Positions 42,796 to 50,186 of a stretch of DNA of 50,413 nt are shown here, one piece after another. The translations under genes and the position numbers were made by a program. The stretch is from assembly GCA_943356415.1 (NCBI GenBank), contig CALREW010000003.1, forward strand, positions 1 through 50,413, read 5' to 3'. The stretch's first letter is position 1. Every line of letters starts with the position of its first letter. The stretch is from Candidatus Nomurabacteria bacterium. GTDB taxonomy: Bacteria > Patescibacteriota > Minisyncoccia > Phycocordibacterales > SBAW01. A model generated the notes under the pieces. That model did not search any database. It was not told the origin of the DNA and worked only from the letters and a program-made list of their open reading frames with translations.

Positions 42796-44268
42796 TTATT
42801 CGACGTGATATTTCTTGCGCAGTTCCTTTACGCTTGCCTCTTCCTCTTCTTCTTTACGCTCCTTCCCTGCTTCTCCGAGTTTTTTTAGTTCTTCATCGGA
42901 CAATTTTGATAACTCCCCTACCCTAGCCCGCAAATGTTCGTCCGTATTTTTCTCTGGGTTGTCTAAAACCTCCTCGAGCAAGGCGTGGAGCATGTATCCG
43001 ATGCGCGGTCCTGCCTTCTCCCCCATTTGCATCAGATCGTTTCCATCAATTTTGAGCATTCCCACCGTGAGTGGCGCGCGGAGCGCTTCTTCTATCATCG
43101 ATTGGTACTTGCGCAGGCGAAATGGTTGCTCTTTTGGTCGGCCAGTACCGATACGATCACAAATGCGGAGGTTCACCAGGTCCCAAATATTTTCCTGGCC
43201 GACATTTCGGACGATACGGCGTACAGCAGAGAGCGTTACTTTCTCTGGATCAGAAAAGAACATGTGCCAGCGCACGAGGTTTGAAACTTTATCGACTGTC
43301 TCCTTCGGAAAACGTAGATCCTGCAAGGCTTTTTTGGTCACTCGCGAACCAACGACATCGTGCCCATAAAAGGTCCAATCGTTCTTCTCCTCGGAGCGGC
43401 GGCGGGTCTCAGGCTTGGCTACATCATGGAAAAGTGCCGAGAGGCGTATGTCGAATGACCAACCTTTGTCTGCTGCGTGCTGAAGGCTCCTCAAGTTATG
43501 CTCCCAAACGTCGTAGCTATGTGCTTGGTTTTGATCAATACCCATTCCCCTTTCTAAGTCTGGCGCGATAAAGCGAAGTGCCCCGATGGCTTGGGCAAGC
43601 TGCACGGCTTTCATGGGCTTGCTTGAATTGAGCATGCGCACAAACTCATCACGGATGCGCTCTTTGGATATTTTTCCTAGTCGTCCGACTTCAGCAATCA
43701 TCGCATCGCGCGTTTCGGGCTCTATTGAAAAGTCGAGCTCTGCCGAGAGACGTATGGCGCGCAGTATGCGTAATGCATCTTCTGCAAAACGTTCTCTCGC
43801 CTGCCCTACCGCTCGCAACACGCCAGCTTTCAGATCCGCCTGCCCCCCGTAGTTGTCTACGAGTACATCTTTTTCTGGACTATAGGCAAATGCGTTCACC
43901 GTAAAGTCTCGACGCTTAAGATCGTCATCGAGTTTCTGGCTCCAGATTACCTCGTCCGGCCGGCGTGAGTCGGTGTACTTCCCTTCCACGCGGTACGGGG
44001 TTACTTCAATGACTTTGAGTCGCTCGTCTGCAGCCTCGTCCCACACAACACCCACGGTCCCAAATTCGTTCGTATAGAAGGTATGCGGAAATATTCGCTG
44101 GATGTCCTCCGGCGTTGCGTCGGTAGTAACGTCCCAGTCGTTCGGCTCCTTCCCTATTACAAGATCGCGGATACAACCACCAACCACGTAGGCTTCGAAG
44201 CCTGCGTCCGAGAGACCAGATGTCACTTGGAGCACTTCTTTCGGTATTGAATCAGGCCGTATTTTCAC
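42796..44268 (-). CDS. CCA tRNA nucleotidyltransferase / poly(A) polymerase family with HD domain
   Basis: AYVVGGCIRDLVIGKEPNDWDVTTDATPEDI, RRDFTVNAFAYSPEKD, ALRILRAIRLSAEL, ALFHDVAKPETRR. Confidence 0.93.
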   Translation of the reverse strand: MKIRPDSIPKEVLQVTSGLSDAGFEAYVVGGCIRDLVIGKEPNDWDVTTDATPEDIQRIFPHTFYTNEFGTVGVVWDEAADERLKVIEVTPYRVEGKYTDSRRPDEVIWSQKLDDDLKRRDFTVNAFAYSPEKDVLVDNYGGQADLKAGVLRAVGQARERFAEDALRILRAIRLSAELDFSIEPETRDAMIAEVGRLGKISKERIRDEFVRMLNSSKPMKAVQLAQAIGALRFIAPDLERGMGIDQNQAHSYDVWEHNLRSLQHAADKGWSFDIRLSALFHDVAKPETRRRSEEKNDWTFYGHDVVGSRVTKKALQDLRFPKETVDKVSNLVRWHMFFSDPEKVTLSAVRRIVRNVGQENIWDLVNLRICDRIGTGRPKEQPFRLRKYQSMIEEALRAPLTVGMLKIDGNDLMQMGEKAGPRIGYMLHALLEEVLDNPEKNTDEHLRARVGELSKLSDEELKKLGEAGKERKEEEEEASVKELRKKYHVE

Positions 44269-44340
44269 ACAACCATCCTAACAGACATTCCTAAGTGAGC
44301 GCTTTGTTATAGCCCTCCCCTGACGTACCATGGGCCCATT

Positions 44341-44412
44341 GCTCCCGTGGTGAAATGGATATCACGACTGGCTTCGAACCAGTTATTCCAGGTTCGAGTC
44401 CTGGCGGGAGCA
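44341..44412 (+). tRNA. tRNA-Arg (anticodon TCG)
   Basis: GCTCCCG..CGGGAGC-A; anticodon stem ACTGG-CTTCGAA-CCAGT; T-arm CCAGG-TTCGAGT-CCTGG; no encoded CCA. Confidence 0.93.
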
Positions 44413-44418
44413 CCTAGA

Positions 44419-44449
44419 CAGAAATATCTGCCCTGCGGCAGATTTTCTG
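44419..44449 (+). terminator. hairpin downstream of tRNA-Arg
   Basis: CAGAAA-t-ATCTGCC-ctgc-GGCAGAT-TTTCTG. Confidence 0.6.
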
Positions 44450-44524
44450 CGCAGGTTCTGACCTGAGCTAAGACCCTCTTGGGGATTAGACGCTAGTCTG
44501 CTATTGTTTTGTCGTCTAAGTTCA

Positions 44525-44577
44525 GCGGATATCGGTTTGGCCTGAGGAATACCTCTAGGCTGTGTTAGAACGGCCGC
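44525..44577 (+). repeat. tRNA-Gly 5'-half-like module with D-loop hairpin (copy C)
   Basis: GCGGATATcGGTTT + GCCTGAGG-aata-CCTCtAGGC + GTTAGAAC. Confidence 0.55.
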
Positions 44578-44608
44578 AGGTTCAGTAAAGGTCATGAGTT
44601 CCTAGAAT

Positions 44609-44657
44609 GCCGGATAGGTTCTCGCTTGGGCAAGCCCTGAGCTGTGGTAGGACGGTC
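44609..44657 (+). repeat. tRNA-Gly 5'-half-like module with D-loop hairpin (copy B)
   Basis: GCCGGATAGGTTC + GCTTGGG-caag-CCCtGAGC + GGTAGGAC. Confidence 0.55.
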
Positions 44658-44669
44658 AAAGTTTGAAAT

Positions 44670-44740
44670 GCGGATATGGTTTAGTGGTAGGACGGCTCCT
44701 TGCCAAGGAGCAGGCGGGAGTTCGATTCTCCCTATCCGCA
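44670..44740 (+). tRNA. tRNA-Gly (anticodon GCC)
   Basis: GCGGATA..TATCCGC-A; GCTCC-TTGCCAA-GGAGC; GGGAG-TTCGATT-CTCCC; no encoded CCA. Confidence 0.94.
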
Positions 44741-44744
44741 CAAG

Positions 44745-44827
44745 CACAAAAATGAGCCCTTCGAAGGGCCATTTTTGTTTGTGCGGATAGAGGAAGCCGA
44801 CTGCTCGGCTTCCGTGGAGAATCGAAC
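44745..44827. repeat. imperfect inverted repeat duplicating the 3' end of tRNA-Gly(GCC) in antisense, plus hairpin
   Basis: CGAAGGGCCATTTTTGTTTGTGCGGATAG [AGGAAGCCGActgcTCGGCTTCCGT] GGAGAATCGAAC mirrors GTTCGATTCTCCCTATCCGCACAAGCACAAAAATGAGCCCTTCG. Confidence 0.75.
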
Positions 44828-44928
44828 AGCTGAGCTATGTTACCCTCAGGTAACAGGCGAGCTGGTGCCCAGACCAAGGTGAGCGACGGCGAACCTTGAG
44901 TCGCGGGCGATCTCCCGGCATCTCTCCT

Positions 44929-44944
44929 TGTTTCCCGTGTAACA
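44929..44944. promoter_or_regulatory. parS-like site TGTTTCCCGTGTAACA
   Basis: 14/16 match to TGTTTCACGTGAAACA. Confidence 0.6.
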
Positions 44945-45026
44945 GGCAAAATAGACAACAAGACGCAAAAGACATCCAGGTTTTATGAATATTGGGTGTT
45001 GAAAAATAAGGGTTTTACTCAAAATC

Positions 45027-45035
45027 TGTGGATAA
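45027..45035 (-). promoter_or_regulatory. DnaA-box match TTATCCACA
   Basis: TGTGGATAA on +; exact 9-mer. Confidence 0.35.
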
Positions 45036-45151
45036 CATTGGGGACATGTGCATAAAAGACACGTCCGATAGGCCTTTAGAATATGGTTCGATTTCAAAAA
45101 TATGGCCTAAAATAAGGTCTTTTTGACTTTTTAGGTCTAAGAAAGTAAAAA

Positions 45152-45167
45152 CGTTTCACGTGATAGG
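45152..45167. promoter_or_regulatory. parS-like site cGTTTCACGTGAtAgg
   Basis: 12/16 match including core GTTTCACGTGA. Confidence 0.5.
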
Positions 45168-45173
45168 AATTAT

Positions 45174-45590
45174 ATGAAGTTTCCCGTGAAAACAACTGAA
45201 AAGCGCCTAACAGGCAACCTAGGAGAGGCTTTAGTTGCTAAATACCTTACAAAACAAGGATTTATAGTACTTTCACGTAACTATCTCCTTGCGTATGGGG
45301 AGTTGGACCTCGTAGCTAAAAAGGCAGGAGTTATCCACTTTGTTGAGGTTAAGTCTGTTACATGTGAAATACCCCCAGATGTTTCCCGTGAAATGAGTAT
45401 TATTAAAAACCCTGCTGAAAAGATAGATGAGCACAAATTGCGCAAAATAGGGAAGGCCGCTCAGACATATCTAGTCAACATGGATCTTTTGGACATGGAC
45501 TGGCAGGTAGATGCGGCACTTGTATGGATTGACCGTGCCTCTAAACGAGCAAAGGTCGAGTTGCTTGAAAACGTGAGTGCGGGCATATAA
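45174..45590 (+). CDS. YraN/UPF0102 family endonuclease-fold protein
   Basis: TGNLGEALVAKYLTKQGFIVLSRNYLLAYGELDLVAKKAGVIHFVEVKS. Confidence 0.88.
   Translation: MKFPVKTTEKRLTGNLGEALVAKYLTKQGFIVLSRNYLLAYGELDLVAKKAGVIHFVEVKSVTCEIPPDVSREMSIIKNPAEKIDEHKLRKIGKAAQTYLVNMDLLDMDWQVDAALVWIDRASKRAKVELLENVSAGI
45178..45193. promoter_or_regulatory. parS-like site aGTTTCCCGTGAAAac
   Basis: 12/16 match. Confidence 0.45.
45356..45371. promoter_or_regulatory. parS-like site TGTTACATGTGAAATA
   Basis: 13/16 match, inside yraN. Confidence 0.45.
45380..45395. promoter_or_regulatory. parS-like site TGTTTCCCGTGAAATG
   Basis: 13/16 match, inside yraN. Confidence 0.5.
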
Positions 45591-48385: not shown

Positions 48386-48457
48386 TTCAAAAAGCGGGAT
48401 TAGCCCGACATGCGTAGCAGTCGAGGTCCCGACCGCAGCGTCGGGATTCTCAGAAAA

Positions 48458-48505
48458 GCGGGATTAGTTCTCACCTGGGTAAACCCTAGGTTATGTTAGA
48501 ACATC
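48458..48505 (+). repeat. tRNA-Gly 5'-half-like module with D-loop hairpin (copy A)
   Basis: GCGGGATTAGTTC + ACCTGGG-taaa-CCCtAGGT + GTTAGAAC. Confidence 0.55.
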
Positions 48506-48550
48506 TAGACAATGGGCCTAGAGTAATAACGAGGACACAGTCCGCAAAAT

Positions 48551-48624
48551 GCGGGATTAGTTTAATGGTAGAACATCAGTTTTCCAAACTGAGAGCACCG
48601 GTCCGATTCCGGTATCCCGCACCA
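48551..48624 (+). tRNA. tRNA-Gly (anticodon TCC), CCA encoded
   Basis: GCGGGAT..ATCCCGC-A-CCA; TCAGT-TTTCCAA-ACTGA. Confidence 0.93.
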
Positions 48625-50146
48625 AAATCTGACTTTCAGAAAATTGACCGACTTTTTCATTGGCGGCGCACAGCGCCGCCCATGCGTTTTGTCCCGACAA
48701 ATCCTCTCCGCTCGGCGCGGTGAGCTGCGCCTCGCGGTTGGCCAAGACGAGGTTCGAGCCAAAGATTTCTTTGGCAGCAACCTTTTTGCTAAAAAGGTTG
48801 CTCTCCCGCGCGATTTTAGGCAGATTCTCTGCCTCTTTTATCCATTCTGTCATCGGTTCGAGCCAGCCAGTCCGCTTTTGTTCAATCCGCGCCGTTTGCT
48901 CTTCCAGCGACTTCTTTTCGGAAAGGAGTTTTGCTTTCTCGGTGCGGTAGATTTCTCGCTCAATATCTTGTTCTAAATAGCCATCGAGAAGTCGCTGGAG
49001 CTTAATTTGAATGGCGCGGATTCTCTCTCCGGATTCCTGAACAAAAGCGGTTGAGGATTGGGCGGCTTCGGTTTTCTCTTTTTCAAGCATAGCGGTTAGT
49101 TCCGCCGCCCAATCCGGTCTCAAAGAAAATTTTTGTAGTAGAGATGATAACTGGCGATCTAGTTCCTCTTGGCGAATACAAGGTTCGGGACATTTCAACT
49201 TTGATTTCTTGGTGCAGTGATAATAGACATATTCGTGAACATTTCCATTTTTCTGTTTCTTCACCTTGTATTCGCCAGTTATCATCATTCCGCATGAGGC
49301 ACAGGAAAGGAGTCCGCAAAAAGGTTGTGGTTCATTTTTTTGCTTGTGGTGCGGACGGCCTCGTTGCTTCAAAACTTCCTGCGCCTTGTCCCAAATTTTC
49401 TTTGAGACCACTGGCTGGTGCTTGCCCTCGTGGATTTCGCCACCATAGCGAAAGTGTCCGTAGTAGAAGGGATTGGAAAGGATAAAAGTAATTCTGTCTC
49501 GGTGGAGTCGCTTGCCGTTTTTTGAATGAATACCGGATTGCGCCAAAAAGTTTGAAATGTCCTCAAGGCGACTTCCATTTTTCGCGTACAGCTCAAACGC
49601 CTTGCGAATGAGTGAGGCGCGCTTCTTGTCCACGATAACAGTTTTCGTTCGCACATCATTGATATATCCGATAGGCGCAAGGCAGGGATATTCGCCGCGC
49701 CTCACTTTTTGGCGCAATCCACGCTTCGTATTTTCGGCAAGCGAATCCACATAGTATTTGCTTTGCCCAAAGGCGATATTGAGCATGAACTTTCCTTGTG
49801 AGGTATTTTCACACCAGAACTGCGGAAATTTCAGGTCCGCAAGTCCACCGCCGTCAAGCAGGTAGATAATCTTTCCACCGTCAACAGAATTGCGCGCCAA
49901 TCTGTCGGGGTGCCAAGCAAGGATAGCGTTTGCATCGCCTCGCTCTATGCGCGAAATCATTTTGTTGAAAATCGGGCGGCCGGTAATTTTGGCGGATTGC
50001 TTTTCAATAAATTCCTCGGCGATGTGCAAACCCTCTTGCCTGGCAAAGGCGCGCAATTCTGTGATCTGCGCTTCAATAGATAAAACCTGCTTGTCCTCCA
50101 CATCGGTGGACTTGCGGGCGTAGAGAAAATATTTGTAGTTGTTCAT
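48557..50146 (-). CDS. large serine recombinase (resolvase + recombinase + zinc ribbon)
   Basis: KYFLYARKSTDVEDKQVLSIEAQ, AWHPDRLARN, AFGQSKYYVDSLAENTKRGLRQKVRRGEYPCLAPIGYIND, CASCGMMITGEY..; start set near MNNYKYF; 3' end antisense to tRNA-Gly(TCC). Confidence 0.93.
   Translation of the reverse strand: MNNYKYFLYARKSTDVEDKQVLSIEAQITELRAFARQEGLHIAEEFIEKQSAKITGRPIFNKMISRIERGDANAILAWHPDRLARNSVDGGKIIYLLDGGGLADLKFPQFWCENTSQGKFMLNIAFGQSKYYVDSLAENTKRGLRQKVRRGEYPCLAPIGYINDVRTKTVIVDKKRASLIRKAFELYAKNGSRLEDISNFLAQSGIHSKNGKRLHRDRITFILSNPFYYGHFRYGGEIHEGKHQPVVSKKIWDKAQEVLKQRGRPHHKQKNEPQPFCGLLSCASCGMMITGEYKVKKQKNGNVHEYVYYHCTKKSKLKCPEPCIRQEELDRQLSSLLQKFSLRPDWAAELTAMLEKEKTEAAQSSTAFVQESGERIRAIQIKLQRLLDGYLEQDIEREIYRTEKAKLLSEKKSLEEQTARIEQKRTGWLEPMTEWIKEAENLPKIARESNLFSKKVAAKEIFGSNLVLANREAQLTAPSGEDLSGQNAWAALCAANEKVGQFSESQILVRDTGIGPVLSVWKTDVLPLN
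48620..48756. repeat. left arm of 137-bp inverted repeat
   Basis: Reverse complement of 50204-50340, 1 mismatch. Confidence 0.95.
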
Positions 50147-50186
50147 GCTCATACAATTATTGGGCAAAGCAAATCCGAGACAGAAT

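Follow-up and report, generated by a model that had tools for sequence, protein, structure and literature searches.

Displaced tRNA ends with folded inserts in a Nomurabacteria genome suggest small, gene-free elements that enter tRNA genes

Why would the beginning of a tRNA gene be repeated twice, each time interrupted by a small hairpin, upstream of the complete gene? This question is raised by a 50,413-nucleotide stretch of DNA from a Candidatus Nomurabacteria bacterium (assembly GCA_943356415.1, contig CALREW010000003.1; "the window" denotes this whole stretch), in which two modules, A and B, precede the gene for tRNA-Gly(GCC) (44670-44741; detected by ARAGORN and as Rfam RF00005 with 68.8 bits). 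Each module is composed of the first part of this tRNA, with the D-arm split by a hairpin that contains a bulged T. A regulatory RNA, a decoy or an integration remnant had been suggested in the original prediction, and our analysis favours the last of these in a modified form. We consider it rather probable that tiny gene-free elements enter tRNA genes at internal sites while preserving a complete copy of the tRNA, and that A and B are displaced 5' ends, each carrying a hairpin insertion, with the intact tRNA following them. Sequence comparison favours reading A and B as a local example of a set of tRNA-end elements found across the bacterial order.

Read directly from the sequence, module A consists of GCGGATATCGGTTT, the hairpin GCCT-GAGG-AATA-CCTC-T-AGGC and GTGTTAGAACGGC (44525-44575), and module B of GCCGGATAGGTTC, the hairpin GCTT-GGG-CAAG-CCC-T-GAGC and GTGGTAGGACGG (44609-44657), which confirms the positions, D-stems, tetraloops and bulged T first described for both. 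The displaced 5' end of copy A (44525-44538; like all features of the window on the + strand, unless stated otherwise) matches nt 1-13 of tRNA-Gly(GCC) at 13 of 13 bases, with one extra C inserted; it is followed by the D-loop hairpin (44540-44560) and by the remaining D-arm GTGTTAGAACGGC (44562-44574), 11 of whose 13 positions are identical to the tRNA. Copy B, aligned to the same tRNA, has its displaced 5' end at 44609-44621, its hairpin at 44624-44642 and its remaining D-arm, identical at 12 of 12 positions, at 44644-44655. Both hairpins were defined by sequence reading and a pairing test. Local alignment of the spacer with tRNA-Gly(GCC) gave a score of 24.0 in four colinear blocks, equalled in 3 of 300 shuffles, and the presence of two copies of the tRNA 5' portion upstream of the gene is thus borne out.

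Screening the flanks of all 44 tRNAs of this approximately 0.8 Mb genome revealed a third D-loop hairpin module, copy C (48458-48506), which was examined by the same alignment and pairing test. It precedes tRNA-Gly(TCC) (48551-48624; ARAGORN), and its start agrees with this tRNA at 12 of 12 bases; A and B, by contrast, correspond to tRNA-Gly(GCC). All three modules have the hairpin in common, and the tRNA part is in each case that of the neighbouring tRNA. Of the 7 hairpin pairs, 3 differ among the modules in both bases, and 100% of hairpin cells pair, a result equalled by 23 of 500 shuffles; slid structures give at most one two-sided pair. A further copy thus exists and its pairs covary, and the covariation that had been proposed is real but thin. 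The expectation of a single RNA family of 5' tRNA halves, reachable by a covariance model, did not hold: the model built from A, B and C recovered nothing beyond its own three copies in a search of 40 genomes. The A-C hairpin is confined to the tRNA-Gly genes of one genome, and its family is tiny. No close DNA relatives of 44518-44666 were found within the family. As had been supposed, no named family was found for the modules: only tRNAs exceeded the Rfam gathering score in the window, a permissive search of 44260-45180 gave no credible match for the modules, and the literature searched contained no precedent for such tRNA-end elements.

How widespread are displaced tRNA ends? We counted exact copies, at least 10 nt long, of each tRNA's own ends within 250 nt of the gene, for 125 tRNAs in three genomes (this one and two relatives); the sequence examined consisted of stretches around tRNAs, usually with flanks of at least 1.5 kb. 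The 5' end was copied upstream on the same strand 12 times against 0.15 expected, with 5 against 0.05 for the 44 tRNAs of this genome alone. The 3' end was copied downstream in direct orientation 35 times (0.6 expected) and in inverted orientation 37 times (0.25 expected), while the remaining five combinations of end, side and orientation summed to close to zero. The copies of tRNA ends are end- and strand-specific, and they do not constitute an isolated RNA family.

On the 5' side, a unit of about 60-80 nt is composed of one or two hairpins, joined within the D-arm after nt 10 or 13, and then the restored 5' end. At least two hairpin types occur: the A-C type after tRNA nt 13, and the commoner U type, a double hairpin of the form CCCCGACG..GTCGGGG TCCCGAC..GTCGGGA. 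The window holds one U-type double hairpin (48404-48446), recognized by related double hairpins in other genomes and inserted after nt 10 of a displaced tRNA-Gly(TCC) 5' end (nt 1-10 at 48394-48403, by comparison with the tRNA). Next to tRNA genes, the U type is inserted exactly between nt 10 and nt 11 of the displaced 5' copy, which resumes after the hairpin. A search of 99 genomes found U-type double hairpins in 18, with at most 14 in any one genome, and the reversed control pattern yielded 0. In displaced 5' copies, they are accompanied by a duplication of at least 8 nt in 9 of 10 cases, compared with 1.6% of mispaired controls. The U type is also found at non-tRNA sites, mostly after TAG and usually without flanking duplication; TAG precedes 21 of 33 U-type hairpins and GTAG 13 of 33. 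Since tRNA nt 8-10 often read TAG, this may be the reason why U hairpins strike tRNAs. The A-C D-loop hairpins, which are preceded by GTTT or GTTC and lack a GTAG/CGTC tag, are probably a local counterpart of the U type.

Other arrangements were noted upstream of tRNAs. About 20-60 nt ahead of tRNA-Ile(TAT) at locus L051, a displaced 5' half extends through the anticodon loop without a hairpin, and its junction is a third junction point besides those in the D-arm and T-loop. Upstream of tRNA-Arg(GCG) at L089 and tRNA-Thr(GGT) at L060, hairpins are repeated in tandem, three of them at L060, and each pairs the acceptor 5' strand with its complement around an inner hairpin. At L232, a sequence resembling tRNA-Arg(CCT) carries a U hairpin at nt 10/11 and was considered as a possible broken tRNA; its 5' end is mismatched, and it was not used as evidence.

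The 3' side shows a more elaborate organization, and the tRNA-Gly(GCC) of the window has its own 3' element (44781-44916). The intact tRNA is followed by a terminator palindrome (44743-44782, from sequence reading), which is continuous with an inverted tRNA 3' end. Alignment to the tRNA identifies the inverted acceptor 3' strand GTGCGGATAG (44781-44790) and the inverted T-stem and T-loop GGAGAATCGAAC (44816-44827); the inverted copy is split by a CTGC-loop hairpin (44792-44813), which recurs with the same loop and position at other tRNAs of this genome. The core then follows, with hairpin P2 (44828-44863), placed by a curated alignment of nine cores, and hairpin P3 with a GAGC-GACG-GCGA tip (44867-44908), which is supported by covariation and by a match to model R1 (44864-44908, E 3.7e-9). 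A decayed direct copy of the tRNA 3' end closes the element, in which comparison with the tRNA gives CGATCTCCC for CGATTCTCCC (44908-44916).

This order, from the intact tRNA through a terminator-like palindrome, the inverted 3' end, P2 and P3 to a displaced direct copy and often a second terminator, is that of the 3' elements in general. The unit can be written as T3' (tRNA nt 56 to the end), terminator, inverted T3' and two-hairpin core, with the T-loop position C56 or G53 as the point of junction to the displaced original T3'. Among 47 direct 3' copies, 21 have C56 as their first base and 6 have G53; most finish 0-3 nt beyond N73. They cluster 100-180 nt from the tRNA, tandem copies are found at 280-390 nt, and no copy is more than 400 nt away. 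The units carry no genes and occur in arrays of two or three, and a single array can combine different core types, as at the tRNA-Lys of L152.

Several variants of this architecture were seen. Second and third core types, for example GCCCGATTGAG..ATCCAATCGGGGTACTGAACTTGTAAAGTTCGA, are present at tRNA 3' ends in L152, L165, L177, L119 and L121. At L201, tRNA-Ser(GGA) is followed downstream by a displaced copy, 72 nt long, that covers most of this tRNA, and then by a 3' element. Elsewhere in the genome of the window (L104, about 1501-1549; C1:421428), a 3' element of the Leu type carries a displaced 3' end resembling that of tRNA-Leu, with no tRNA gene detected nearby, and could be the relic of a lost tRNA.

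Does the conserved core act as a folded molecule, and on which strand? The cores, which MAFFT had misaligned, were aligned manually on the basis of their folds, and model R1 was built from P3 alone. In eight sequences from the window's own genome, P3 reached a covariation score of 0.611 against 0.263. Among 43 matches from two relatives, in an alignment fitted to the model, 93% of cells were paired and the score was 0.604, compared with 0.204 for shuffled and at most 0.12 for slid structures. One-sided changes in the core, counted in 3' elements only, produce G.T far more often than A.C (62 to 5), which indicates that it is the tRNA-sense strand that folds, either as RNA or as single-stranded DNA. 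All but two of the 43 matches (41 of 43) are located less than 400 nt downstream of a tRNA on the same strand. The core is present in 55 of 99 genomes of the order and, at a strict threshold, in 10 of 381 genomes of a phylum sample, among them two from the same class and two from other classes; wherever these phylum-sample cores were inspected, they adjoin tRNAs. It is absent from Rfam, and viral contigs gave no exact match to the one strict pattern that was used.

Such features could indicate regulatory RNA elements of tRNA transcripts, that is, leaders and trailers whose copies of tRNA ends compete for pairing and thereby control folding, processing or read-through. Strong covariation, a sense-strand-specific fold, a conserved G.U pair and a GA/GA motif would all suit such a role, as would the constant location of the elements on the tRNA strand, usually directly after the terminator, and the ability of the inverted copy to pair with the tRNA 3' end or with the direct copy. 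We nevertheless regard this explanation as unlikely. The distribution is patchy, with 44 of the 99 related genomes lacking the core at threshold and orthologous tRNAs lacking the element; tandem arrays contain differing cores; and the displaced ends fall precisely at C56 and at the mature tRNA end. Moreover, an element is also found at the end of a protein gene (L118), and the window region 44415-44745 (331 nt) is as stable as its shuffles (z -0.95).

Comparison of orthologous loci and of the cores themselves points instead to insertion and spread. The spacer between tRNA-Arg(TCG) and tRNA-Gly(GCC) measures 27-107 nt in relatives without the element, 175-294 nt in three relatives with it and 255 nt here; at L030, where the element is likewise present, it reaches 585 nt and includes a reading frame. 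Orthologous tRNAs are often free of the element. In L118 (1400-1640), a 3' element is inserted at the 3' end of a protein gene, which its reading frame shows to encode a topoisomerase-like product with zinc-finger repeats, and past the core lies a diverged copy of the last 24 codons of this gene, a pattern which suggests that the gene end was replaced in the manner of integrating elements. One genome has cores that are 97-99% alike at three of its tRNA-Leu genes, and another has such cores at two tRNA-Lys genes. For 24 of 68 cores, the nearest neighbour comes from the same genome, with about 7 expected, a figure that is slightly inflated since L112 and L193 are one locus counted twice.

If insertion took place, could the displaced ends be scars of large integrative elements, such as phages, plasmids or serine-recombinase islands, which had tRNA genes as their attachment sites and whose interior has since disappeared? 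A displaced fragment together with a regenerated tRNA is the hallmark of islands in tRNA genes (PMC4383910), and genes for large serine recombinases adjoin the 3' end of several tRNAs here. Such scars would, however, hardly be expected to have a uniform unit size, with no copy beyond 400 nt, or to share conserved, covarying cores, and we judge this origin very improbable. Large serine recombinases were also considered as the general driver and rejected: their number is uncorrelated with that of the elements (Spearman 0.10, p 0.33), none was detected in seven genomes that have at least five elements, and the recombinase loci that adjoin tRNAs show no clear displaced tRNA end. One such gene lies in the window (48557-50167, - strand; PF00239, PF07508, PF13408), its 3' end running antisense into tRNA-Gly(TCC). 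The genome contains eight PF07508 matches, and a similar convergent gene runs into the 3' end of seven more tRNAs (Arg TCT, Leu CAG, Leu TAG, Ser CGA, Thr CGT, Thr GGT and Ala TGC).

Least probable of all is an origin of the copies in replication errors, devoid of mobility or function, in which the polymerase switches template or slips at palindromes of the tRNA and the terminator. Such errors would fit the extension of the terminator palindrome into the tRNA 3' end, as quasi-palindrome correction would yield, and the minimal tandem units of 39-42 nt at L013 (tRNA-Pro) and L113 (tRNA-Arg CCG), each with a copy of the tRNA 3' end. Slippage cannot, however, place one and the same covarying core beside numerous tRNAs of 55 of 99 genomes, or near-identical cores at distant tRNAs; it may still be the source of the minimal units and of some inverted copies.

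We return to the insertion of small elements into tRNA genes. It is quite possible, and we propose this tentatively, that they represent a minimal mobile element of a new kind: gene-free cassettes of about 100-180 nt with a sense-strand fold and a fixed entry point in the tRNA, which would rebuild the tRNA end, accumulate in tandem arrays and rely on an enzyme acting in trans. A recombinase or transposase acting in trans would link a short, folded single strand of tRNA sense to one set position in the tRNA gene. On the 3' side, one crossover at C56 between the tRNA gene and a small circle, composed of core, T3', terminator and inverted T3', would generate the observed order. The folded stem would rebuild the target site, as attC does, and entry would resemble that of an attC cassette into an integron.

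Several points weigh against this proposal. No enzyme has been identified, and the relatives compared are other species or genera, with no excised form, population-level polymorphism or movement observed. The 5' modules do not have the inverted copy that an attC-like model needs, and the two sides may differ in mechanism. Away from tRNAs, the U hairpin is associated with little duplication, and insertion alone does not explain the duplication of tRNA sequence. Some cores, such as the Leu type, track the tRNA amino acid across genomes, as a vertically inherited functional RNA would do likewise, and the conserved GA/GA and G.U features exceed the known needs of a recombination site. A mobile element may, of course, have effects at the RNA level, too.

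If small elements do insert in this way, they would be the smallest integrating elements known, residing in very small genomes and inside essential tRNA genes that are left unbroken. They would be frequent enough, at up to about half of a genome's tRNA genes, to shape tRNA transcripts, and they would link tRNA attachment sites, hairpins resembling repetitive extragenic palindromic (REP) sequences, and cassette arrays, with clear predictions on junctions and enzymes. If they are RNA regulators instead, they would form a large, uncatalogued family of structured RNAs acting on tRNA transcripts.

How do these elements compare with known systems? For casposases, insertion into the 3' ends of tRNAs has been described, accompanied by duplication of a short target, and casposons and Cas1-dependent CRISPR spacer acquisition resemble the 3' elements in this respect. 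The elements described here, in contrast, have neither terminal inverted repeats nor a polymerase. Cas1 or a casposase as the general enzyme was tried and rejected, with Cas1 present in 4 of 99 genomes, none of them element-rich, and absent from genomes G000, G005, G066 and G082. Integron attC cassettes form tandem arrays at a fixed anchor, and their folded single strand rebuilds a double-stranded site; the 3' elements likewise stand in tandem at a fixed anchor and fold on one strand specifically, but they carry no gene, possess conserved core hairpins, have tRNA-end sequence in place of attC boxes and are anchored at a tRNA gene.

Two further systems share traits with the elements. The U type, as a short, dispersed, multicopy palindrome, is reminiscent of the GTAG- or CGTC-tagged REP palindromes (PMC3733652); TAG usually precedes it, and the full GTAG does so in 13 of 33 cases. 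It differs from them as a double hairpin that is placed, at many sites, exactly at tRNA nt 10/11 of displaced 5' copies, and the A-C hairpins differ in being untagged and in numbering three copies only, all at tRNA-Gly. The tyrosine-integrase islands in tRNA genes (Islander; PMC4383910) split their target, restore the tRNA through the insert and leave the displaced fragment at the far end, which is the same arrangement as seen here. In contrast to these islands, the units in our genomes measure 100-180 nt (those on the 5' side about 60-80 nt), encode no gene or integrase and keep all 3'-end copies within 400 nt, and they possess, in addition, a tRNA end in inverted orientation and a folded core that is conserved.
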